Part shown: piece by piece, positions 34,199 to 63,589 of the stretch | Numbering within the stretch: the stretch's first letter is position 1 | Layout: the number at the start of each line of letters is the position of its first letter | NCBI RefSeq assembly: GCF_003634935.1 | Contig: NZ_RBXO01000001.1 | Coordinates: 3,931,501-3,995,500 of the forward strand | Direction of reading: 5' to 3' | DNA: 64,000 nucleotides | Source of the DNA: Saccharothrix australiensis | GTDB taxonomy: Bacteria; Actinomycetota; Actinomycetes; Mycobacteriales; Pseudonocardiaceae | The notes under the pieces: generated by a model | Databases searched by the model: none | What the model saw: the letters and a program-made list of their open reading frames with translations, nothing else | What the model was told of the DNA's origin: nothing | Program-made: the position numbers and the translations under genes

Positions 34199-35302
34199 GT
34201 GGCCGAAGAGGTGTCGTACGACGTGTGCCTGTCGTTCGCGGGCAGCGAGCGCGACTACGTCGAGGAGGTCGCGGGACTGCTGCGCGCCCACGACGTGCGG
34301 GTCTTCTACGACGCCTACGAGACCGTCGACATGTGGGGTGACGACCTCCACGAGCACCTGGTCGACGTCTACCGCGACCGGGCGCGCTTCTGCGTGCTGT
34401 TCGCCTCGGCGGACTACGCCCGCCGGGTGTGGACCACGTTCGAGCGCCGGGCGGCGCAGGACCGGGCGATCCACACCGCGGGGCCGTACCTGCTGCCGGT
34501 GCTGTTCGACGACGCCGCGATACCCGGCCTGCACCGCACCACCGCGTGCGTGGACGCGCGCACCACCTCGCCCGCCGGGCTCGTCCGGCTGCTGCTGGAG
34601 AAGCTCGGGCGGACCGCGCCGCCGGTCGGCGTGCCGTCGTCGGTGCTGGTCCTCGCGACCGACGAGCCCGACCCGGAGCTGGACCGGGTCCTGGACACGG
34701 CGCTCGCCCGCTGCCGCCTCACCCTGCGGCGCGACCGGCGGCGCTCCACCGACCGCCGCGTGGTGGCGGTCGTGCCGGAGTCGGTCGCGTCCGTCGTGGA
34801 CGTGGTCACCGCGCTGGTGCCCGCCGTCGAGTCGGTGGCCCGTGAGCGGGGGTCGGCCGCGCCCGGCGGTCCGCTGCGCGTGGCGGTCCACTGCGGACAG
34901 GTGATCGGCTTGGACGGCGTGGACGTGGCGGGCGCGGTCGACGCCGCCGCGTCGGCCGCCGTCGGCGACGTGCTGTCCCGCGCGGACCGGGCGCGCTGCG
35001 CCGTCGCGGTGTCGCAGCGGGTGTGGGAGCGCGTGGTCGAACGCGGTCGCGGCGGCAGCAATCCGGCGGCCTACCAGCGGATCCGCCTGCCCGACGGCGC
35101 GGAGTACCACGTGCGCGTGCAGGGCTACCCGAAACCGCCGCCCGCGCGGGGCGGTCCGGACCACCCGCGCGGCGACGGCGGCGGCGGCAACGGCGGCGCG
35201 AAGTCGTACTACTTCCACGACAAGGTGGACGTGGGCCGCATCGGCGACACCTTCAACCTCGGCGACGGGTACCGGTTCGGGAGCGCCGATGGCGGCCGGT
35301 GA
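34199..35302 (+). CDS. TIR-domain protein with cyclase-like C-terminal region
   Basis: 367 aa. Residues 5-130 are a bacterial TIR domain: YDVCLSFAGSERDYVEEVA, VRVFYDAYETVDMWGDDL with the probable catalytic Glu (E41), FCVLFASADYARRVWTTFE, and YLLPVLFDD. TIR domains of this class cleave NAD+ or make cyclic ADP-ribose signals. Residues ~145-320 resemble a degenerate class III nucleotide-cyclase fold (PLRVAVHCGQVIGLDG, then CAVAVSQRVWERVV) without clear metal-binding Asp residues. The tail GGNGGAKSYYFHDKVDVG is like the Gly-rich tags on actinobacterial conflict proteins. GTG 34199 has GGAGG 7 bp upstream. First gene of a four-gene operon, overlapping the next by 14 bp. Confidence 0.88.
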   Translation: MAEEVSYDVCLSFAGSERDYVEEVAGLLRAHDVRVFYDAYETVDMWGDDLHEHLVDVYRDRARFCVLFASADYARRVWTTFERRAAQDRAIHTAGPYLLPVLFDDAAIPGLHRTTACVDARTTSPAGLVRLLLEKLGRTAPPVGVPSSVLVLATDEPDPELDRVLDTALARCRLTLRRDRRRSTDRRVVAVVPESVASVVDVVTALVPAVESVARERGSAAPGGPLRVAVHCGQVIGLDGVDVAGAVDAAASAAVGDVLSRADRARCAVAVSQRVWERVVERGRGGSNPAAYQRIRLPDGAEYHVRVQGYPKPPPARGGPDHPRGDGGGGNGGAKSYYFHDKVDVGRIGDTFNLGDGYRFGSADGGR

Positions 35303-37529
35303 CCCGCCGGAGGACCGCGCCGACGACACCGACCGCGCCGGCACCCGCGACACCGGCACCCGCGACACCGGGGCCACCGGGACCCGTGACACCGGGACGG
35401 CGGGCCGCTCGGACGTCCGGGACCGGGCGGGCGACGCCGACAAGGGCTTCACCGAGGCGCAGGCGAAGGCGGCCGACCCGTCCTCCGCCGGCGAGTGGCA
35501 GGACCTGCGGGCCAAGTTCGACACGGCCAAGCAGTGGCTCGGCGGCGGCACCACGAACGTCTTCTTCGGCGAGGCGCGCGTCGGCTCGCTGGGCGACCAC
35601 TACGCGACGGCGGGCGTCGCCTCGGCCCACTCCGCGCACTTCGGCGTCGTGGTCAACAGCGGGCCGGTGCCCGCCGCGATGCTCGCCGACATCCGCGAGT
35701 CCTACGTGGAACCCGCGCGCTACGGCCACCTCCGCGCGGTGCTGGAGTCCCACCAGGTGGTGGTGATCCGGGCGCCCGACGGCACCGGCCGCACGGCCAC
35801 CGCGCTGCGCCTGCTGGACGACCTGTGCCGCGAGGGCGTGCTCAAGCTCGACCCCGACGTGAACCTCAAGACCGTCGACGGCAGCGCGTTCAGCGGGCTG
35901 CGCGGCTACCTGCTGGAGTCCCTGGACCCCGAGCAGGCCCGCGAGCTGCGCGCCTTCCACGCCGAACGGCTGTGCGCCCTGATGAAGGACAAGGGCTGCA
36001 TGCTCGTGGTGATCGCCGACGACCGGACGCCGCTGCCGGTCGAGGACATCGGCCACCTGGTGGTGGACGACCTGGGCGAGGTCGAGCCCTCGGCGCTGAT
36101 CCGGCGGCACCTCGACTGGGGCCTGTCGGCGGTCGAGTCGCCGCGGGCGGGCGCGGCCGTGCTCGACCTGCCCGAGGTGCGGGAGATCGTCACCGCGCTC
36201 ACCCCCGACGTGCCGCGCCGCCAACTGGCCGACCTCGGCGCGCTGCTGGTGGACGTGGCCACCGGGCGCATCGACGTCGAGGTGGTGCGTGAGCGGTACT
36301 CGGCCACCAGCCGGGCGAACTTCGTCTCCTGGTTCGACCAGCAGACCGACGTCGAGCAGCGGGCGTTCGTGATCGCCCTGGCCGTGTTCAACGACGAGCC
36401 CGTGCACCTGGTGTCCGGCGCCGCGACCATGCTGGCCGACCTGGTCAAGGAGGTCGAGCTGCCCCGGCGGGCGGACCGCGGGCGCGCCCTGTTCGCCACC
36501 CCGCTGAGCAGGCGGCTGGAGGACGCCCGCGCCGAAGTGGTGGAGGACACCGAGCGGACCCGCATCGGCAACGTGACCGTGCGCAAGGCGCGGTTCCGCG
36601 ACGACCGCTACCCGGCGCTGGTGCTCGCCCACCTGTGCACCGAGTACGACCAGGGCCTGACGGTGGTCACGCGGTGGCTGCGGGAACTCGGCGGGGCACT
36701 GGGCGGGCGGGTGCGGGTCCGCGCCGGCATGGCCGCGGGTTTCCTGAGCACCTACGACTTCTTCGGCATCCACCACGAGGTCGTGCAGCCCTGGGCGGAC
36801 GCCGACGACCCCTACACCCGCGACGCGGCCGTGGCGGCGCTCCAGTTCCCCTCCGACCACCCCGCGCTGGGCCGCGTCGTCCACAAGCTGCTCGACGCGT
36901 GGCTGCGCGATCGCGAGAACTGGTCGCGCCGCAAGACCGCCGCGCGGGCGCTGGGCAGCACCACCGCCGCGAGCCCGGCGGCGGTGCTCAGGCTGCTCAA
37001 GCGGACCGCCCGGCACGTCGACTGGACCACCGCGTTCATGATCGGCGAGAGCGTCAGCGACCTGCTGTGCCGGGTCGACGACCCGGTGCAGGTCCTCGAC
37101 GCGCTGGTGGCGTGGAGCGACGACGACGAGTTCCCGCTGCGCCGCGAGACCGCGCTGCTCGCCGTGCTCGTCGCGAGCAACTACCTGACCGTGTCGGTCG
37201 CCGAGAGCGCCGAGAAGTGGCCCGCGCTGCTGTGGCTGGCCGAGGACGGCGAACCGGCCCGCTCGCGGGTGGTGCTGCTGTTCGCGCGGATGCTCCAGAC
37301 CGCCGACTTCCTCGGTCGCGGCTACGAGCACCTGCGCCGCTGGCTGCGCCTCGCGCAGCGCGACCGCACGCTGCGCGCGCCGGTGGCGCGCCTGCTGTTC
37401 GACATCGGCACGGAGATGGACGACCTGGACAGCGTCCGCCACTACGTCGAGACCTGGGGCGCCGGCCGGGGCGGCCCGGCCGACGCGGCCCGCGCGGTGC
37501 TCGACCACTTCGACGAAGGAGCGAACTGA
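35289..37529 (+). CDS. P-loop/HEAT-like protein of the TIR operon
   Basis: 746 aa. A disordered start (~1-60) carries GTRDT/GTRDTG tandem units. A second segment has TNVFFGEARVG, similar in style to the TIR protein's tail. The P-loop is VVVIRAPDGTGRTATALRLL (~155-175), with Arg in place of Lys after the second Gly, followed by a Walker B-like CMLVVIADD (~240). Residues ~330-740 are helical repeats of HEAT/ARM type (DPYTRDAAVAALQF, RRKTAARALG, FPLRRETALLAVLVASN). The layout suggests a STAND-like or AAA switch with a repeat sensor. Function unknown. ATG 35289 lies inside the TIR gene; the stop is 1 bp before the next start. Confidence 0.75.
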   Translation: MAAGDPPEDRADDTDRAGTRDTGTRDTGATGTRDTGTAGRSDVRDRAGDADKGFTEAQAKAADPSSAGEWQDLRAKFDTAKQWLGGGTTNVFFGEARVGSLGDHYATAGVASAHSAHFGVVVNSGPVPAAMLADIRESYVEPARYGHLRAVLESHQVVVIRAPDGTGRTATALRLLDDLCREGVLKLDPDVNLKTVDGSAFSGLRGYLLESLDPEQARELRAFHAERLCALMKDKGCMLVVIADDRTPLPVEDIGHLVVDDLGEVEPSALIRRHLDWGLSAVESPRAGAAVLDLPEVREIVTALTPDVPRRQLADLGALLVDVATGRIDVEVVRERYSATSRANFVSWFDQQTDVEQRAFVIALAVFNDEPVHLVSGAATMLADLVKEVELPRRADRGRALFATPLSRRLEDARAEVVEDTERTRIGNVTVRKARFRDDRYPALVLAHLCTEYDQGLTVVTRWLRELGGALGGRVRVRAGMAAGFLSTYDFFGIHHEVVQPWADADDPYTRDAAVAALQFPSDHPALGRVVHKLLDAWLRDRENWSRRKTAARALGSTTAASPAAVLRLLKRTARHVDWTTAFMIGESVSDLLCRVDDPVQVLDALVAWSDDDEFPLRRETALLAVLVASNYLTVSVAESAEKWPALLWLAEDGEPARSRVVLLFARMLQTADFLGRGYEHLRRWLRLAQRDRTLRAPVARLLFDIGTEMDDLDSVRHYVETWGAGRGGPADAARAVLDHFDEGAN

Positions 37530-37530
37530 C

Positions 37531-38553
37531 ATGGGCAGTGCGACCGACCAGGGCGTCGTGCGGGAGATCGAGGTCAGCCGGTCCGCGCTGCGCAAGGCCA
37601 ACCCCTCGTCGTCGGGCCACTCCGCCGTCGTGTGCGTCACCCGGCGCGGCGAGTACGTCACCGTCCAGGGCAGGCTGACGATGGGTGAGCTGTGGCTGAC
37701 CACGCCCAGGGAGATGTACGTCGTCGACATCTCCGCCCGCGAGGACGTGTTCAAGGTCGACCTGCCCTCGCAGGAGGAGGCGTTCTCGTTCGCGGCGAAC
37801 CTGCGGGTCAGGTGGCACGTGGCGGACCCGGTGGCGGCGGTGCGCGCCCGGCTCGGCGCGCCGCAGCACTCCGTCAAGCAGCAGGTGGAGGTGCGGCTGC
37901 GGGAGGTGTCGCGGCTGTTCGACCTGGAGAGCAGCGCCGCCGCCGAGCGCCGGATCAACCTCGACCACGAGCACCTGGAGATCCCGCTGCACAACGGCGT
38001 CGTGGTCGACGGCTGCCGGGTCGTGCTGAGCCTGGACGCCGAGGCGCGCGAGCACATCGCCAAGCGCACCCGCGCCCGCTGGACCCGCGAGGACCTGGCG
38101 ATCACCGGCGAGACCGAGCAGCAGTCGCACCTGCTGGAGCTCCAGCGCACCTCGTTCCAGCGGGAACTGGAAGCCCTGCGGGAGAAGCACGAGATGGACC
38201 TGAAGATGCAGCGGATGTCCGTCTACGCGGACGCCCTGCGGACCGACAACAACAACCTCCTCGCCCTGCGCCTGGCCGGGCACGGCGAGGACGTCAACGA
38301 CGTCATCGAGATGATCATGAAGCAGCGGCAGTTGGAGTTCAACGGCGCGAGCGCCGTGCTCAACTCCCTGCTGGAGGCGAACCTGGTCAACCGCAAGGAC
38401 GTGGCCGCGATCATGGCCAACGCGAGCAACATGGTGATCGACCAGCTCGGCGGCCCGAAGGGCCTGGACAAGGCGGCCGAGCCGCGCCCGGCGGTCGCCG
38501 CCGACGCCGTGCGCGCGGACCGGGTCGAGGAGGACGACGATGACGACCGGTGA
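37531..38553 (+). CDS. SPFH/band-7-like protein of the TIR operon
   Basis: 340 aa. Residues ~30-160 fit an SPFH (band-7/prohibitin) fold: GEYVTVQGRLTMGELWLTT, VVDISAREDVFKVDLPSQ, then EAFSFAANLRVRWHVADPV and SVKQQVEVRLREVSRLFDLES. Residues ~190-260 form a charged coiled coil (LLELQRTSFQRELEALREKHEMDLKMQR), as in flotillins. No membrane helix is seen, unlike most SPFH proteins; the next gene supplies one. The acidic tail EEDDDDDR ends in the overlap. By family knowledge SPFH proteins scaffold membrane microdomains. ATG 37531, one base after the upstream stop; overlaps the next gene by 14 bp. Confidence 0.7.
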   Translation: MGSATDQGVVREIEVSRSALRKANPSSSGHSAVVCVTRRGEYVTVQGRLTMGELWLTTPREMYVVDISAREDVFKVDLPSQEEAFSFAANLRVRWHVADPVAAVRARLGAPQHSVKQQVEVRLREVSRLFDLESSAAAERRINLDHEHLEIPLHNGVVVDGCRVVLSLDAEAREHIAKRTRARWTREDLAITGETEQQSHLLELQRTSFQRELEALREKHEMDLKMQRMSVYADALRTDNNNLLALRLAGHGEDVNDVIEMIMKQRQLEFNGASAVLNSLLEANLVNRKDVAAIMANASNMVIDQLGGPKGLDKAAEPRPAVAADAVRADRVEEDDDDDR

Positions 38554-39091
38554 GGTGGTCAACCCGGTGGCCGACGTGCCGCTGGTCGGCGGCCTGCTCG
38601 CCGTGCTGGACGAGTTCGCGGCCGGCCTCGGCGTGCCGTTCTGGCTGCGTGCGCTCGCCGAGTGCGCCCTGGTGGCGGTGGTGGGGTTCGCCGTGCTGCG
38701 CCTGGTCGCGACCAGGGTGCTGCCGTGGGTGGGCGAGGCGCTGGTCCGCCCGGTCGTGCTGGTCACGGCGGCGGTGCGGGCGCTGCTGCTGCTGGTCGAC
38801 CTCGGGATCAGCCGGGCGGTGCGGCGCTTCGGCCGCGTGCCGCCGGAACCGGTCTACGCCTACGGCACGGCGGTGATGGCGGTGCTCGACGTCGTCGAGG
38901 GGTTCGTCCGGGCCGGCCTGCCGAAGCTCGCCATCGCGCGGGCCGCGCCGCGCTGGCTGCTGGTCGGCGCGATGGTGATGGCGTTCCTCGCGTGGAACGG
39001 CAACGAGTGCGTGCCCTCGGCCGACACGGCCTGCGTGAGCCCGGTCAACCACTGGACCACGTCGTTCGAGGCGTGGGTGGGGACGCGGTAG
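38540..39091 (+). CDS. Membrane protein of the TIR operon
   Basis: 183 aa with three likely helices: ALAECALVAVVGFAVLRLVA (~39-58), PVVLVTAAVRALLLLVDLGI (~71-90) and WLLVGAMVMAFLAWNG (~140-155). Two cysteines in ECVPSADTACV at the likely outer face could pair. I recognise no family. The start is embedded in the last 14 bp of the SPFH gene, so it is made with it and probably anchors the complex. Last gene of the operon. Confidence 0.75.
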   Translation: MTTGEVVNPVADVPLVGGLLAVLDEFAAGLGVPFWLRALAECALVAVVGFAVLRLVATRVLPWVGEALVRPVVLVTAAVRALLLLVDLGISRAVRRFGRVPPEPVYAYGTAVMAVLDVVEGFVRAGLPKLAIARAAPRWLLVGAMVMAFLAWNGNECVPSADTACVSPVNHWTTSFEAWVGTR

Positions 39092-39272: not shown

Positions 39273-39307
39273 GGGGCCCGTCCGACCGCTCGCGGCGAGC
39301 GGGCCCC
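39273..39307. terminator. Bidirectional terminator hairpin
   Basis: GGGGCCC (39273-39279) pairs with GGGCCCC (39301-39307), with an inner CGCTCG/CGAGCG stem. Lies between the TIR operon and the convergent aminopeptidase gene. Confidence 0.6.
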
Positions 39308-39411
39308 GTGCCGGTCAGTCGCGTGCCGGCCGACGCGTGCCGGTCAGTCGCCTCTCGGCCGGTGGCGTGTCGGTCAGTCGCGTGCCGGTCAGCCGCGTGC
39401 CGGTCCGTCGC
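39308..39411. repeat. Degenerate 15-bp tandem repeat
   Basis: About six imperfect copies of GTGCCGGTCAGTCGC (39308, 39337, 39367, 39382, 39397 and a diverged one at 39323). The last part runs into the 3' end of the aminopeptidase gene and supplies its final residues RDGPARG. Confidence 0.75.
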
Positions 39412-40846
39412 GGTGGATGCGCGCGAACGACTTCGGCTCGCTCGTCGTCAGCGACCGCGCGCCCACCGGCGCGGGCTTGCCGGGGGAGTGCACCCACGTC
39501 CGGAACAGGTCGTCCAGGTCGCGCCCGGTGATCTCCTCGGCCATCGCGACGAACTCGGCCGTGCCGGCGTTGCCGTGCTCCTTGGTCGAGGCCCACGTCC
39601 GCAGCAGCGCGAAGAACGTCGCGTCACCGATCGCCGCCCGCAGCGCCTGCAGCGCCAGGGCGCCCCGCTCGTGCACCGCCGCGCCGTACAGGTAGCGCGG
39701 GGTGGGGTCGGCGACCGCCACGTCCCAGACCTCGTGGTCGGCGGGGTAGTACCGGTAGGTCCAGTCCGCCAGGTCCTGCGCCGTGCCCTCGCCGACGGCC
39801 TCCGACCACAGCCACTGCGCGTAGGTCGCGAAGCCCTCGCTGAGCCAGATGTCCTTCCACTGCCGCACCGCCACCGAGTTGCCGAACCACTGGTGCGCCG
39901 TCTCGTGCACCACGACGTAGTCGTTCGGGCCGTCCTGGAACGCCCACGCCGGGTAGGCCGGCCGGGTCTGGGTCTCCAGCGTCGACGACAGGTACGGGCT
40001 GACCACGCCGCCCAGCTCGGCCATCGGGTAGTAGCCGAACCTGCCCTCCAGGAACCGCACGACCTCGCGGGTCCGCTCCACGCTGGCGCGGGCCGCCGGG
40101 CCGCGCGTGCCCAGCGCGTCCGAGTACGCCGTGACGACCTGCTTGCCGGTGTCGGAGTAGCCCCGCCGCACGTCGAACTGGCCGATCGCCAGGAACGTCG
40201 CGTAGGTGGTCTGCGGCTTGCCGCTGAACCACGACCAGTTCGTGCGCCCGTCGCCCAGCGGGAACGTGCCCACCAGCTCGCCGTTGGAGATCGCCTCCAC
40301 CCCGTCCGGCACGGTGATCACCACGTCGTAGGTGGCCTTGTCGCTCGGGTGGTCGTTGGCCGGGTACCACCAGGGCGACATCGACGGCGCGGCGACCGCC
40401 AGCGCGCCGTCCGGGGTGCGCTTCCAGCGCGTCACGGGCACCTCGGCGTGGGTACGCGACGGCGACGCCGAGTAGGTGAACACGAAGGACAGGTCGGTGC
40501 CCGCCGGCACGTCGCCGCCCGTGCCCACGGTCAGCTCGGTGCCGTGCTGGGCGAACCCGACGTCGCGCCCGTTGACGCGGGCCGTCAGCAGCGGCAGCGC
40601 GAAGTCGAAGTTGACCGACGACACGTCCCGCGTCGTGACCGCGTTGACGACGGTCCGCCCGGTCAGCACGTCCGTCGCCGGGTCGTACTGCAAACCCAGG
40701 CTGTAGTGCCGGACGTCATACCCGGCGTTGCCCGCACGGGGGTAGTACGGGTCGCCCAGGCCCGGTGCACCGGGCTCGGCGGCGTGCGCGGGCGTCGCGC
40801 CGAGCGCCAGTGCCGCGACGACCAGTCCGATCAGCGTTTTTCGCAA
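39389..40846 (-). CDS. Secreted M1-family aminopeptidase
   Basis: 485 aa. Signal peptide MRKTLIGLVVAALALGATPAHAAE. The zinc site is VVHETAHQWFGN with the third ligand Glu in WLSEGFATYAQWL (HExxH-x18-E). The aminopeptidase exopeptidase loop (GAMEN in most members) is SSTLETQTR here. N-terminal beta domain ~30-210, catalytic domain ~210-440. The long C-terminal helical domain of cytosolic PepN is absent, as in other secreted ~500-aa members. It trims N-terminal residues from peptides outside the cell. TTG 40846 is chosen because it gives a signal peptide and has GAAGGA 6 bp upstream. Confidence 0.9.
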   Translation of the reverse strand: MRKTLIGLVVAALALGATPAHAAEPGAPGLGDPYYPRAGNAGYDVRHYSLGLQYDPATDVLTGRTVVNAVTTRDVSSVNFDFALPLLTARVNGRDVGFAQHGTELTVGTGGDVPAGTDLSFVFTYSASPSRTHAEVPVTRWKRTPDGALAVAAPSMSPWWYPANDHPSDKATYDVVITVPDGVEAISNGELVGTFPLGDGRTNWSWFSGKPQTTYATFLAIGQFDVRRGYSDTGKQVVTAYSDALGTRGPAARASVERTREVVRFLEGRFGYYPMAELGGVVSPYLSSTLETQTRPAYPAWAFQDGPNDYVVVHETAHQWFGNSVAVRQWKDIWLSEGFATYAQWLWSEAVGEGTAQDLADWTYRYYPADHEVWDVAVADPTPRYLYGAAVHERGALALQALRAAIGDATFFALLRTWASTKEHGNAGTAEFVAMAEEITGRDLDDLFRTWVHSPGKPAPVGARSLTTSEPKSFARIHRDGPARG

Positions 40847-58412: not shown

Positions 58413-60908
58413 TCACCCGCCCCACCCGTGGCACACGAACGGCATCAACGGCTCGCTCCGGGTCGCGTCGGCCAGCGCCTCACCCGGCGGCACGCCGCGT
58501 GCCAGCGCCCGGTGGTAGGCGGTCATCACCTCGACCGCCGCCTCGTCGTCGACCCGCGCCACGCTGGACACCACGGTCCGGCTGCCGCTGTAGAGCAGGG
58601 CGGCGGTGAAGCCCAGGATCTCGTCGCCCGCCCGCACCACCGCCTGGCCGATGTCGCACGACGACAGCACGACGTGGTCCGGCACGGCCGCCAGCTGGTG
58701 CACGTCGTGCGCCATCAGCGGACCGTCGACGAGGTCCAGCCGGGAGAACAGCACGTTCTCCTGCTCGTGGTGGCCGTGCGAGGCGAAGTGCGCCAGGCTG
58801 CTGCGGTTCACCGCAGCGAGCGCGTTGTCCACGGTGGCGTCGTCGCCGTCGAGCACCGTGCTGTCGGGGTAGATCCGCGCCAGCCGCCGTACCTCGTCCG
58901 ACGAGTGCTTGAGGTTCGGGCCGCCGACCAGCAGCACGGGACCGGCCGGCCGGGTGGTGCGCTTCGCCGAGACCCACGCCGAGGGCGACGGCGTCACGGT
59001 GACCGGCCGCCCGCGCAACGCGTCCAGCAGGCCCCACGGCATCGCCGACAGCGCGCCGGTCGGCACGAGCACCACGTTGTGGTCCCCGATGGCGGGCAGC
59101 AGCGGGTCGAGCAGGTGCTCGGACAGCACACCCAGCTGGCGGCGGATCGAGGTGTGGATCACCTGCTCCAGCGCCGGGTGGAGCCGCCTGCCGCACGCCG
59201 CGTCGAGGTCGCTGCGCAACCGGGCGATGGCCTCGAACACCGCGGCGGTGCCGCCGAGCCCGAGCAGGTCGGCGCGGCGGTCGCCGACGACCTGCGCCAG
59301 CAGCCTGCCGCCGTCGACGAGGAAGCTGACCAGCACGCTGTCCGCGTCGGCCAGCTCGGCCTTCACCTCGCCGAAACCGACCTCGGCGGAGCGCCCGCCC
59401 ACGCCGTCGGTGCGCCAGCCCTTCGCCCGGATCTCGCGTTCGAGCTGCCGGGCGCGGCGCAGCGCGTCGGTGTCCTGGCTGCCCTTCAGCTCGGCGGCGC
59501 GGGCCTCCCGCGCGAGCTGCCGCAGCTCGGCGACGGCGTCGACGGTGTGCTCGTCGGCCGGTGTGCGGACGGGCGGGAAGCGGAACGCCTGCGCGCGCGA
59601 GCGCTCCAGCCACCGGTAGACCACCTCGGGCCTGCCGTTCTCCAGCGCCGCCGCGAGGCCGGCGCGGGCCAGCTCGCCGCCCAGCGAGGTGGTGCCGGTC
59701 TGGAGATCGAGGCTGCCGAACCGGCCGCGGTGCTCGCGCAGCAGCGCCAGGCCGGCGCGTGCCTCGGCGAACGTGCGGCGCTGGTCGCCCTCGGCCGCGC
59801 CGAGCTCGGCCAGGACGAGCCTGCGCAGCAGCCTCGTGGTCAGCGGCGCGCCGGGGCGGTCGCGGCCGGACAGGTGCACGCGCGCCTCGGCCGTCCGGCC
59901 CCTGGCGAGGTAGGTGCGCGCGGCGAGCAGGTCGGCCTCCTCGGCGTCGTTGCGCAGGCCCAGCGAGCGCAGCCGGTCGGCGAGCCGGGCCGCCGCGCGG
60001 GCGACGCGGACGGTGCCGTTGCCCGCCGCGAAGTCCGCCCGCAGCATCGCCAGTTCCGCGACGGCGGCCCACGTGTCGTTGCGGCGGCGGCGGAAGTGCA
60101 GCCGGGCCCGGTCGGCCCACCGCCGCGCCTCGGCCGGGTCGCCCGCGGCGAGCCGGGCCCGCGCCATCGTCAGCTCGGCCTCGGCGTGCTCGTGGCCCAT
60201 CCGCAGCTCGGGCACCCGCTTGAGGAACGTGTCCAGCTCGGTCGCCGCCTCGCTGGGCAGGCCCGCCGCGAGCAGCGCCCGCGCCCGGTCGCCGGCGAGC
60301 ACGGCCAGCATCCCCTGGCCCTGGTCGGCGTAGACCTCGGCGGCGATGTCGAAGTCCCGCAGCGCGCCGGGGATGTCACCGGTCAGCACCCGGCACTGGC
60401 CCCGGCCGTGCACGGCCTTGGCGACGGTGCGCGGCATGCCCTCGTCGGGCCCGAGCGACGCGCCCAGCTGCGCGCACTGGTCCAGGTCGGCCAGCGCCAG
60501 CCGGACCCGGCCCGCGATCTGGTGCAGCATCCCGCGGTTGAGCAGCACCCGCGTCAGCGCCGCCTTCTGGTCGGTGCGCCGCAGCCGCAGGATGGCGTCG
60601 TCGAACAGGCTCAGCGCGTCGTCCATCCGCCCGGTGAGGACGGCGACCAGCGCCCGCTGCGACAGCAGCAGGTGCCGGTCCTCCGCGGTGACGACCTCGT
60701 CGGCCTCGTCCAGCAGCTCCAGGGCCCGGCCGGTGTTGCCCTGCGCGACCTCGGCGGCGGCCAACGTGCCCAGCAACCGCGCGGTCAACGGCTCCGCGCG
60801 GTCGGCCAGGCGCAGGGCTTCGCGCAGCAAGCGCGCCCCCACGGCGGGCCGGCCGCTGTTGATCTCCTCGATCGCGCGCTGATGCAGGTCCCGCACACGG
60901 TCGCTCAC
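58413..60908 (-). CDS. TPR-CHAT caspase-like protease
   Basis: 831 aa. Residues ~5-480 are TPR-like helical repeats (ALEEINSG-type pairs: GRALELLDEADEVVTAED, GALRDFDIAAEVYADQGQ). A CHAT domain at ~560-825 ends the protein, with the catalytic His in AHFASHGHHEQ and Cys in VVLSSCDIGQA, the caspase/separase dyad. Such proteins cleave partner proteins when activated and often cause cell death or defence. GTG 60908 begins MSDRVRDLHQRAIEEIN. Five bases separate it from the upstream gene, so it is the last gene of the subtilase-sigma operon. Confidence 0.92.
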   Translation of the reverse strand: MSDRVRDLHQRAIEEINSGRPAVGARLLREALRLADRAEPLTARLLGTLAAAEVAQGNTGRALELLDEADEVVTAEDRHLLLSQRALVAVLTGRMDDALSLFDDAILRLRRTDQKAALTRVLLNRGMLHQIAGRVRLALADLDQCAQLGASLGPDEGMPRTVAKAVHGRGQCRVLTGDIPGALRDFDIAAEVYADQGQGMLAVLAGDRARALLAAGLPSEAATELDTFLKRVPELRMGHEHAEAELTMARARLAAGDPAEARRWADRARLHFRRRRNDTWAAVAELAMLRADFAAGNGTVRVARAAARLADRLRSLGLRNDAEEADLLAARTYLARGRTAEARVHLSGRDRPGAPLTTRLLRRLVLAELGAAEGDQRRTFAEARAGLALLREHRGRFGSLDLQTGTTSLGGELARAGLAAALENGRPEVVYRWLERSRAQAFRFPPVRTPADEHTVDAVAELRQLAREARAAELKGSQDTDALRRARQLEREIRAKGWRTDGVGGRSAEVGFGEVKAELADADSVLVSFLVDGGRLLAQVVGDRRADLLGLGGTAAVFEAIARLRSDLDAACGRRLHPALEQVIHTSIRRQLGVLSEHLLDPLLPAIGDHNVVLVPTGALSAMPWGLLDALRGRPVTVTPSPSAWVSAKRTTRPAGPVLLVGGPNLKHSSDEVRRLARIYPDSTVLDGDDATVDNALAAVNRSSLAHFASHGHHEQENVLFSRLDLVDGPLMAHDVHQLAAVPDHVVLSSCDIGQAVVRAGDEILGFTAALLYSGSRTVVSSVARVDDEAAVEVMTAYHRALARGVPPGEALADATRSEPLMPFVCHGWGG

Positions 60909-60913
60909 CGGGC

Positions 60914-61396
60914 CTATAGTGTCATCGTCGGGGTACTTACGGCACTCGTCCGGCCCCTTGGTCGGATCACGAACTGGACGAAACCCGACGGGATGCGTCC
61001 GAGTGCGAACCTCCCGTCCTCGTTGGCGCTGGTGCGCAGCGGTCCGGCGGGGGTGCGCACCTCGACCTCGTGCGGCGCGGGCGGCGAGAGCCAGCCGTCC
61101 ACGCGGTACGTCCCGTCGCCCCGCGCCTGCACGTTGACCATGAAGTCCACGGTGCCGCCGGCGAACGTGATCATGCGGGAGTGCACGTCGCCCCGCACCC
61201 CGGCGACCTCGCGGTGCTCGATGACCCGGACCACCTCGACCTCGGAGTCCTCCAGCTCCACCGCGAACCGGATGCGGTCGACCAGGTCGGCGGGCGCCGG
61301 GTCCAGCGACTCCCACAGCCACCGCACCTCGCGCAGCACCCGGCCGTCGAGGTCGTCGAGCTTCCCGAGGGGGCCGTCCGGGTCGTCGCGGCTCAC
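60914..61396 (-). CDS. Small conserved protein of the sigma-CHAT operon
   Basis: 160 aa. N-terminal helix (LDDLDGRVLREVRWLWESLDPAPADLVDRIRFAV), then a beta-rich part (RMITFAGGTVDFMVNVQA, RVDGWLSPPAPHEVEVR, TSANEDGRFALGRIPSGFVQFVI) that looks like a carboxypeptidase-regulatory/transthyretin-like sandwich. No catalytic motif. GTG 61396 overlaps the sigma gene's stop (GTGA). It might hold or sense the sigma factor or be the CHAT substrate; that is inference from position. Confidence 0.75.
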   Translation of the reverse strand: MSRDDPDGPLGKLDDLDGRVLREVRWLWESLDPAPADLVDRIRFAVELEDSEVEVVRVIEHREVAGVRGDVHSRMITFAGGTVDFMVNVQARGDGTYRVDGWLSPPAPHEVEVRTPAGPLRTSANEDGRFALGRIPSGFVQFVIRPRGRTSAVSTPTMTL

Positions 61397-62001
61397 CGCC
61401 AGCTCCCCTCGTCGTCGGCCAACAGCTGCTTGCGGAGCTGGGCCAGGCAGCGCCCCCTGGTCGGGCCGATGCTGCCCCTGGGCATGTCGAGCGCGGCGCT
61501 GATGTCCGCGTAGTCCGGCCGGGGGACGAACGCGATCACCCGCAGCAGTTCGCGGCAGCGGTGCGACAGCCGGTTCACCGCCGCCCACAGCCGGACGCGG
61601 CGGTCGGCGAACGCGGCCTGCTCGTCGGGGCCAGGCGCGGGGTCGACCACGTCGTCCGGCAGCGCGCCGACCAGCTCGCCGGACCGCTGCTCGGTCCGCA
61701 TGGCCCACGCGACCCGCTTCGTGACGGTCACCAGCCACGCGGTCAGCGCGCGGGGCGTGTGGATGTCGGCCAGCGAGCCGAGCAGCCGCAGCCAGGCGGT
61801 CTGGACGGCGTCCGCGCTGCGCTCCCGGTCCAGGCCCTGGGCCCGCGCGACCTGCCACAGCAACGGGGTCAGCGCCTCGGCGAGCCGGCCGAGCGCCCGG
61901 CGGTCGCCGTCGCGCGCCGCCTCGAACAGGACGGCAAGCCCCTCGTGGTCGCCGAGGGGCTTGCCGCCGAGGTGCCGCCCGTCAGAACGGGTACTGCACA
62001 T
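61393..62001 (-). CDS. ECF-like sigma-70 family factor
   Basis: 202 aa. Region 2 is LFEAARDGDRRALGRLAEALTPLL with RSADAVQTAWLRLLGSL. Region 4 is RVIAFVPRPDYADISAALDMPRGSIGPTRGRCLAQLRKQL, ending in the recognition helix with the PTRGRCL signature of the actinobacterial group found next to CHAT and subtilase genes. ATG 62001 lies within the 3' end of the subtilase gene (20-bp overlap). It presumably drives this operon or a stress regulon. Confidence 0.9.
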   Translation of the reverse strand: MCSTRSDGRHLGGKPLGDHEGLAVLFEAARDGDRRALGRLAEALTPLLWQVARAQGLDRERSADAVQTAWLRLLGSLADIHTPRALTAWLVTVTKRVAWAMRTEQRSGELVGALPDDVVDPAPGPDEQAAFADRRVRLWAAVNRLSHRCRELLRVIAFVPRPDYADISAALDMPRGSIGPTRGRCLAQLRKQLLADDEGSWR

Positions 62002-63589
62002 AGCAGCGTTCCATCGCCGCCCGCGCACGCTCGATCACGGTCTTCCGGTCGACCTGGGCGAGGCTCAGGCCGGTGTCCTCCGCCGCCACGTCGATCAGCG
62101 CGTTGGCCACGGCGGCGGCGGCCAGCGGCGTCGCGAACGAGGTGCCGTCCCACACCGCGAACCCGCTGTCGAAGTCGTCCGGGTCGAAACCGCTGCGCTG
62201 CGAGTCGGACAGCACGGGCTGCCGCGGCCCGGTCACGTCGGTCGGGAAGGTGCTGATGATGCCCGCGCCGGTCGCCCAGCACGTGACCCACTCGCCGTCG
62301 TTGGAGAACCCGGCCTTGGTCGAGTTGGGGTTGAGCGCGCCGACGCTGATCACCCCGGGCCCCCCGGCCGGGTCGTCGGGCAGCTCGGCCAGCGCCGCCG
62401 GGTAGAAGCGCCTGCTGGTCGAGTTGTTGCCGGACGCGGCCAGCACCAGCACGCCCTGCCCGACCAGGCGGCCGACGACCTCCGCGAGGTGCGAGGTGTA
62501 CTTGGCGTCGGACGGCGACTCGTCCAGGTACCCCAGGGAGAGCGACACGACGTCGACCATGTCCTCGGGGCGGCCCTCGTCCTGCGCGCGGGCGACCCGC
62601 CGCGAGATCGCCTCCAGCGCGGCGATGACGTCCGAGCCGTAGGCGACGCCGTCGCTGTGCATGACCCGGACGGCGAGCACGTCCGCGCGCGGCGCGGCCT
62701 GCCGGATGATGCCCGCGATGAACGTGCCGTGCCCGGTGTTGCTGTCCACGTCCTTGATCAGGCGGTCCGTGGTCGCGGGCTCGTCCCAGAAGTCCGTGAG
62801 CGCCTGCGCCGACGTGCCGGCGCAGGTGACGGCGGCGTTGCACCGGATCGCTTCCTGGGCCTCGTCCAGCACGGAGATGAAGCTGTCCTCGGGCGGCGGC
62901 GCGCTGCGGTCGCTGAGGCCGAACCACGGGTGCGGCCCGATCCCCGAGTCCAGCACGGCGACGACGGGCCGCCGGGCGAACCGCTCGGTGCCGACCTCGC
63001 CGCGCGGCGGCGGTTCGGCGACGAGCGTGACCGGCATCCGCGAGAACCCGGCGTCGGACCGGCGGTAGGAGCCGTTCACGATGTCGCCGTTGGTGTCCCA
63101 CGGCGTCCCGGTGATGGTGACGGCGCTGAACATCAGGTGCTCCAGGCTGATGCGCCCGACGAGGTCGCGGTCGAACTCGACGTCGTCGCGGTCGGCGGCG
63201 GCCCGCAGTTCCTGGAGCGCCGCCCACGAGTCGACGTCCCGCCTGCCGGCCAGCGGGCGCAGCACCACGGGGCGCGGCAGGGTGCCCTCCCCGACCTCGG
63301 GAGTGGTCAGGTCGATACCCGCCCCGTTGAGCACCCGGCGGATCGCGCCGAGCCCGACCTCGTCCCGCAGCACGTCCTCGGGCACCAGCAGCACCCGCGG
63401 CCGGTACGCGGTCGAGCGCGGCGCGGGCCAGCCGCCCGCCGCCGCCACCGCGCCGGGGTCGAGGACCCGGCCGTCGTGCCGGTTGAGCAGTTCCGCCGGC
63501 ACCCGCAGCCTCGTCACGGACTCGACGCCGACTCCCCCCGAGCCGCACGCATCGCCTGGCGGCGGCTTCTTGATGAACTTGATCGCCAC
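61982..63589 (-). CDS. Cytoplasmic subtilisin-like (S8) serine protease
   Basis: 535 aa. A ~215-residue N-terminal region with no signal peptide is followed by the S8 domain: Asp in VAVLDSGIGPHP (~205), His in NTGHGTFIAGI (~278), oxyanion Asn in LAASGNNS and Ser in WDGTSFATPLAAAA (~490). The lack of a secretion signal suggests intracellular action, unlike most subtilases. GTG 63589 (MAIKFIKKPPPGDACG) has GGGAGG 5 bp upstream. First gene of the operon with the sigma factor, the small protein and the CHAT protease. Confidence 0.9.
   Translation of the reverse strand: MAIKFIKKPPPGDACGSGGVGVESVTRLRVPAELLNRHDGRVLDPGAVAAAGGWPAPRSTAYRPRVLLVPEDVLRDEVGLGAIRRVLNGAGIDLTTPEVGEGTLPRPVVLRPLAGRRDVDSWAALQELRAAADRDDVEFDRDLVGRISLEHLMFSAVTITGTPWDTNGDIVNGSYRRSDAGFSRMPVTLVAEPPPRGEVGTERFARRPVVAVLDSGIGPHPWFGLSDRSAPPPEDSFISVLDEAQEAIRCNAAVTCAGTSAQALTDFWDEPATTDRLIKDVDSNTGHGTFIAGIIRQAAPRADVLAVRVMHSDGVAYGSDVIAALEAISRRVARAQDEGRPEDMVDVVSLSLGYLDESPSDAKYTSHLAEVVGRLVGQGVLVLAASGNNSTSRRFYPAALAELPDDPAGGPGVISVGALNPNSTKAGFSNDGEWVTCWATGAGIISTFPTDVTGPRQPVLSDSQRSGFDPDDFDSGFAVWDGTSFATPLAAAAVANALIDVAAEDTGLSLAQVDRKTVIERARAAMERCYVQYPF

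Follow-up and report, generated by a model that had tools for sequence, protein, structure and literature searches.

Sequence-matched terminal tags in an actinobacterial family of NTPase-SPFH operons with exchangeable effectors

A four-gene operon of Saccharothrix australiensis, situated on a 64,000-nucleotide stretch of contig NZ_RBXO01000001.1 (the window), belongs to a family of loci in which the C-terminus of an exchangeable effector and the N-terminus of the NTPase encoded next to it carry short matching sequences, termed tags here. In the window, the operon encodes the effector P1 with a TIR and a degenerate cyclase-like domain, the P-loop NTPase P2 with a HEAT-type solenoid, the SPFH protein P3 and the membrane protein P4 (Table 1). 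Across the family, sequence comparison establishes the pairing of the tags, the NTPase and SPFH genes are conserved together, presence is patchy and effectors are exchanged. The mechanism that we prefer, and to which we give an even chance of being correct, is a membrane-scaffolded NLR-like switch that would seed a TIR NADase via amyloid-type tags. The nearest comparison is with the BASS amyloid signalling gene pairs, a Bell, TIR or CHAT effector combined with an NLR, reportedly described by Dyrka et al. in 2020.

Matched tags at effector and NTPase termini

Read side by side, the effector C-terminus and the NTPase N-terminus of one locus share a short similar stretch, which varies between loci. 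The likeness was assessed as the best local alignment between the C-terminal 50 residues of the effector and at most 100 N-terminal residues of the NTPase before its core, with scores doubly centred and partners permuted, for loci with an upstream gene on the same strand, a gap of at most 60 bp and an N-terminal extension of at least 45 residues (59 of 76 loci kept, 17 dropped). The own-partner excess amounts to z = 15.1 for the 59 loci and to 13.7, 9.5 and 7.9 upon thinning to 30, 18 and 13 loci (the last less than 30% identical), and is reached by none of 20000 permutations at each of the four thinning levels; an earlier test with 32 loci gave the same picture. No excess is seen in five comparison sets drawn from elsewhere in these proteins and from the C-terminus of the SPFH protein (with all loci, z lies between -1.9 and 0.2), nor for the NTPase C-terminus versus the next gene (z = 0.44) and for other adjacent gene pairs (z = -0.66). 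The SPFH C-terminus, being without excess, was rejected as a third tag.

The own partner is ranked first in 20 and among the top five in 30 of the 59 loci. Where a genome has two or three systems (six genomes), it beats the cross combination in 15.5 of 20 comparisons. The two systems of the source genome (7.86 Mb, three contigs) have own-pair scores of 36 and 36 versus cross scores of 24 and 25. The second of them, L104 (G000:C1:3114300-3127300), has a SARP-like protein encoded upstream and an OmpA/vWA-like lipoprotein downstream, and a tag pair unlike that of the window, GNFVFGSGPTTY and GIMVNGDGPSTY. Another genome (G734) harbours three systems (L129, L131 and L132) with mutually unlike tag pairs and own scores of 94, 56 and 52 versus 23-35. 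Seven Nocardia loci were found later; in each of them the upstream open reading frame ends, and the NTPase starts, as judged by eye, with a tag of the N.h.hGD.....hG.D type.

With respect to the window itself, the NTPase and the TIR protein would be linked by the matched tag pair, which the earlier note on this DNA overlooked. A tag profile built without the window tags, run against the whole source genome, recovers the tags of P2 and P1 at E = 1.2e-7 and 3.8e-4, with the next match at 0.185; each tag is thus conserved, by which the pairing is not yet established. Only the two tags of the operon rise above noise in the source genome with such profiles, and further tag-bearing effectors in trans were not found there. 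The hexamer [VI]G.[LIV]GD, defined after the tags had been seen, is present, among the five loci sharing the effector type of the window, in four of five effector tails and five of five NTPase extensions, with eight other sites in 926 proteins. Pairing, established for the family, is thus no more than plausible for the window member.

Several observations on the tags weigh against the preferred mechanism. On its own the window pair scores weakly, 276 of 5000 shuffles being as good, and among the other loci of the subgroup combining TIR and cyclase-like domains L108 (2901 of 5000), L111 (855) and L112 (500) are not significant, L065 alone being so (48 of 5000). One-sided profiles of this subgroup reach the other side at E of 0.2-8 only, the own partner ranks below the 30th place in 8 of the 59 loci, and no significant likeness emerges to a BASS3 peptide taken as example (141 of 2000 shuffles). 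The score of the window pair would suit the view that chance or neighbourhood composition makes the tags and that the operon brings together genes with no link between them. The permutations, the other gene pairs and segments without excess and the regular succession of NTPase and SPFH genes described below speak against such a view, which is refuted for the family as a whole and, overall, very improbable.

The tags could also be ordinary docking peptides, acting by beta-augmentation or by binding a common third partner, with P2 merely carrying P1 to the scaffold. The pairing statistics indeed demonstrate tag matching and are silent on cross-beta structure, and the matching is weak in the window's own subgroup. 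On the other hand, the like-with-like similarity suits homotypic templating more than heterotypic docking, and the arrangement is the same as that of the BASS motifs in the portion of PMC7889193 available to us. Compared with their linkers, the tags of 22 of 30 thinned pairs are enriched in N, Y, I, V, H, F and G, with little P and E, a result which the score-based choice of segments may bias; amyloid signalling motifs have a similar composition. Taken together, we regard mere docking as unlikely.

The NTPase-SPFH core and its effectors

Eighty regions were fetched, and 76 loci including the window hold an NTPase gene detected by the gene caller, with five lacking it. A gene matching the SPFH profile, which was built from 21 of the counted loci, lies directly downstream of the NTPase gene in 64 of the 65 loci above 250 bits, in 53 of them within 30 bp, and a P4-like gene is next after the SPFH gene in just 12 of these 65. 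SPFH relatives without a called NTPase nearby, orphan or decayed copies, are observed at L083 and L084 in genomes G003 and G016.

P2 has matches in 36 and P3 in 23 of 199 related genomes; an initial scan of genome contigs queried with P3 gave no match. At E <= 1e-10 the profile of the NTPase core has matches in 135 of the 297 family-level and 8 of the 396 phylum-level genomes, and within the genus 18 of 25 genomes have a match, strong in 11. Relatives are found, among others, in Actinokineospora diospyrosa, Actinosynnema sp. ALI-1.44, Lentzea, Saccharothrix, Umezawaea and seven Nocardia (15 loci). The earlier note had named two objections to its own proposal of a conflict system, namely that the genes are not conserved together or that they are fixed core housekeeping; because NTPase and SPFH genes stay together and their presence varies, neither applies, and the housekeeping explanation is rejected.

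A clean empty site was not found among the 25 genomes of the genus. The M1 peptidase encoded downstream of the operon has relatives in all 25, the three nearest of which (67-71% identical) adjoin no such operon and share no wider synteny. A PADLOC scan of 51 of the 52 called window proteins returned 43 families and, among the matches listed (25), most are to one kinase-type family set. Downstream of the SPFH gene, four loci (L094, L098, L099 and L101) carry genes for PP2C phosphatase and protein kinase, with Pfam assignment for L094 only.

The effector classes combined with the NTPase-SPFH core are TIR, TIR plus cyclase-like, cyclase-like and SARP-like proteins. Among 50 upstream proteins scanned of the 59, TIR_2 is present in 19, BTAD in five, Trans_reg_C in four and SEFIR and DA1-like domains in one each; many of the remaining ones are cyclase-like by alignment, not each of them having been checked singly. 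One cyclase-like effector is fused to a DA1-like peptidase domain (L068:8244-9701, assigned to L068 from its sequence). Exchange of effectors fits a conflict-type system, as judged from these domain assignments.

The BTAD and Trans_reg_C domains, the PP2C, protein kinase and OmpA genes located downstream at sampled loci and the absence of a P2 match in the plasmid and phage collections (viral contigs were outside this search) would equally be in line with a scaffold for stress or developmental signalling rather than immunity. The SPFH protein and the NTPase would then report on the envelope, with the upstream protein as variable output, be it SARP-like transcription, a cyclase-like nucleotide signal or TIR-mediated NAD+ cleavage. 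Outputs of TIR domains are known mostly from immunity, and the patchy presence within the genus, the effector exchange and the frequency of TIR_2 also argue against such a scaffold, which we judge to be quite unlikely.

Architecture of the operon and its proteins

The four open reading frames occupy 34199-39091 on the forward strand, with P1 and P2 overlapping by 14 bp, a 1-bp gap between P2 and P3 and again a 14-bp overlap between P3 and P4. A purpose-written gene caller based on codon usage recovers the same four genes, and the arrangement and spacing given in the earlier note are confirmed. A promoter and terminator scan at the operon found neither. Immediately 3' of it lies a 15-bp tandem repeat of 7.1 copies (window 39307-39412).

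Table 1. Features of the operon in the window; limits of the cyclase-like domain and of the solenoid are approximate
Feature	Position	Strand	Basis
P1, TIR and degenerate cyclase-like effector, 367 residues, GTG start	34199..35302	+	open reading frame list, Pfam, alignments
TIR domain, P1 residues 9-131	34223..34591	+	Pfam TIR_2 9.4e-15
E82 of P1, candidate catalytic Glu	codon 34442-34444	+	alignment with AbTIR, E in 5/5 orthologues
Cyclase-like domain, P1 residues ~146-313, GDG motif lost	34634..35137	+	profile and alignment
Effector-side C-terminal tag, P1 residues 332-352, GGAKSYYFHDKVDVGRIGDTF	35192..35254	+	leave-window-out profile E = 3.8e-4
P2, P-loop STAND-like NTPase with HEAT-type solenoid, 746 residues	35289..37529	+	Pfam, family alignment, model
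NTPase-side N-terminal tag, P2 residues 85-105, GGGTTNVFFGEARVGSLGDHY	35541..35603	+	leave-window-out profile E = 1.2e-7
P-loop APDGTGRT, P2 residues 162-169, Arg for Lys	35772..35795	+	sequence, family conservation
HEAT-type alpha-solenoid, P2 residues ~441-745	36609..37523	+	AlphaFold2 model; HEAT_2 at 537-625 sub-threshold
P3, SPFH/Band-7 protein, long C-terminal helix, without membrane helix, 340 residues	37531..38553	+	Band_7 in relatives, model, hydropathy
P4, membrane protein, two clear and one possible helix, 183 residues	38540..39091	+	hydropathy

The TIR domain ascribed to P1 is borne out by Pfam; the assignment of E41 as its NADase glutamate is not. In a phmmer search of the PDB, P1 matches AbTIR and two related TIR chains (E of 0.0014-0.0052) with WTTFE82 aligning on WTNYE. 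As E82 aligns with the AbTIR glutamate and is kept in five of five orthologues with TIR and cyclase-like domains (window, L065, L108, L111 and L112), whereas position 41 is E in three, Q in L111 and A in L112, the catalytic-type residue is E82, and E41 is rejected. P1 is predicted from its sequence to be a likely NAD-cleaving TIR protein.

The label of a degenerate cyclase-like domain was right. A profile of P1 and 21 relatives matches class III cyclases of the PDB (Ma1120, 5.5e-6), the match spanning the domain's C-terminal half, and the GDG motif seen in cyclase-only relatives is missing in all five members combining TIR and cyclase-like domains, so the catalytic Asp pair of class III nucleotide cyclases is not retained in P1. 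That the first Asp is lost is our own reading of the alignment, in which its column pairs with a TIR residue. The role of the domain is probably to bind a nucleotide or to support dimerisation.

An Arg-variant P-loop and HEAT-like repeats had also been recognized correctly in P2. The Arg column of the P-loop is at least 90% conserved in 22 family sequences. The window copy matches nSTAND3 (0.0021) and HEAT_2 (1.1e-4) in Pfam, both below the Pfam cut-off, and at E <= 0.01 nSTAND3 is matched by nine and HEAT_2 by five of 22 family members; no match to NACHT or NB-ARC is seen in P2. The AlphaFold2 model of the core (pLDDT 90.6) displays a P-loop fold followed by an alpha-solenoid, and Foldseek retrieves chiefly alpha-solenoids with it, including SAMD9, Avs4 and the AVAST5 filament (3.5e-4 to 2.6e-3). 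In its 5' portion, the P2 gene contains short tandem repeats (window 35313-35396) that encode a repetitive RDTGT-type linker ahead of the tag.

P3 alone has no SPFH match in Pfam. Band_7 matches five of 21 members of its family (best 1.3e-6), the P3 model (pLDDT 82.4) resembles prohibitin, HflK/C, stomatin and flotillin (best 6.4e-7), and the family sequence profile retrieves only coiled-coil chains from the PDB. No hydrophobic 19-mer is present (maximum hydropathy 0.95), hence no N-terminal membrane anchor. An SPFH-like domain without a membrane helix, as read from the sequence at the outset, is thus supported. The three helices of P4 are upheld in part, two hydrophobic segments (38-56 and 72-90) being clear and the third below threshold.

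Elsewhere in the window, a TPR-CHAT protease gene (58413-63589 on the reverse strand, CHAT 1.4e-29) with three same-strand genes upstream appears to form a cluster of its own, based on CHAT and concerned with conflict or signalling.

Proposed mechanism and relation to known systems

In the proposed membrane-scaffolded switch, P3 would build a ring or cage which, since P3 has no membrane helix of its own, may be held at the membrane by P4. P2 would be the switch. A component of a phage or a disturbance of the membrane would be the likeliest insult for its HEAT solenoid to sense, and the STAND-type P-loop domain would then oligomerise and gather the N-terminal tags. The gathered tags could fold into a beta-arch, an amyloid-like seed templating the C-terminal tag of P1, and the clustered TIR domains would become an active NADase through E82, leading to arrest or death of the cell and possibly to defence against phage.

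Beyond the tags, there is more to be set against this mechanism. The nSTAND3 match of the window copy is sub-threshold and the Foldseek TM-scores of P2 with STAND proteins are low (0.2-0.3), P4-like genes are infrequent, P2 is unmatched in the plasmid and phage collections, and one PADLOC scan of window proteins does not show enrichment in defence islands. SARP-type effectors and the PP2C/kinase or OmpA neighbours suggest outputs other than death. The membrane-tethered, NAD+-depleting sensor complex of the earlier note is supported in part, by co-conservation and patchy presence, and not with respect to E41, the defence island and a regular P4.

Gene pairs of NLR and effector with paired tags, a minority with TIR effectors, have already been published (PMC7889193, in the part available). 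BASS pairs are adjacent genes of filamentous actinobacteria with a like-with-like motif at the effector C-terminus and the receptor N-terminus, and TIR effectors are reported for them, according to the accessible portions of the sources (PMC7889193; PMC8086366; PMC12261475). The present family shares the adjoining effector and receptor genes (overlapping by 14 bp in the window, with 59 of 76 loci passing the gap and extension limits) and the matched motifs at these termini (z = 7.9-15.1 family-wide). It differs in its receptor, a small P-loop/HEAT protein with no match to NACHT or NB-ARC, in the obligatory SPFH gene and optional membrane gene, and in having cyclase-like and SARP-like effectors also, the window effector being TIR plus cyclase-like instead of a Bell-domain protein. 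As far as the accessible descriptions of BASS pairs go, the SPFH gene and the small receptor set the family apart.

VMAP/MoxR-vWA ternary conflict systems combine actinobacterial NTPases, exchangeable TIR and cNMP cyclase domains, HEAT repeats and Band-7 scaffolds in the part of the account available (Kaur et al., 2020; PMC7159879), and to that extent have TIR, cyclase, HEAT and Band-7 parts in common with the operon. In contrast to them, P1-P4 show no match to MoxR, vWA or VMAP, the scan for VMAP having covered the operon itself. P3 has, by its model, the fold of SPFH assemblies such as prohibitin, HflK/C, stomatin and flotillin, without their N-terminal membrane segment, and may resemble QmcA-YbbJ in relying on a separate membrane partner, P4, which is without an NfeD match in Pfam. 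Thoeris and other bacterial TIR defences share the TIR domain (weak PADLOC match to ThsB, 0.0023; PDC-S66, 1e-10), but P2-P4 include no ThsA-type partner with SIR2 or SLOG. As in Avs/AVAST and SAMD9 STAND NTPases, a P-loop precedes an alpha-solenoid in P2, at the low TM-scores given above; unlike in these, the effector is not fused to the NTPase.

Literature searches retrieved no TIR/STAND/SPFH operon, which is weak evidence of absence as most subscription papers lie outside their coverage, and the available parts of PMC8195603, PMC10907252, PMC10482375 and PMC12881547 do not describe the P1-P4 operon. That no known system has this exact composition can be maintained to this extent; a new kind without relatives it is not, given the tag-paired NLR/TIR pairs in the accessible part of PMC7889193. 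New are effector C-terminal tags that match N-terminal tags of the NTPase of the same operon, tag-linked TIR effectors as such having been described before.

In bacteria, immune signalling of the amyloid type has become known through the sequences of NLR/Bell pairs. A putative receptor tied to an SPFH scaffold gene would place the trigger at the membrane, with one switch core wired to TIR, cyclase-like and SARP-like outputs by a 20-residue tag. More tentatively, and with some doubt on our side, the family might be one of prion-type signalosomes on a membrane cage of SPFH protein, each self-contained and insulated from the others. One NTPase-SPFH core would serve exchangeable outputs, namely NAD+ cleavage, transcription factors or proteins of the cyclase-like type, and co-diverging tag pairs would allow several copies per genome without cross-talk. 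The co-varying tag pairs make this insulation directly testable. If true, amyloid templating would extend from NLR cell-death pairs to membrane-scaffolded receptors and transcriptional outputs.

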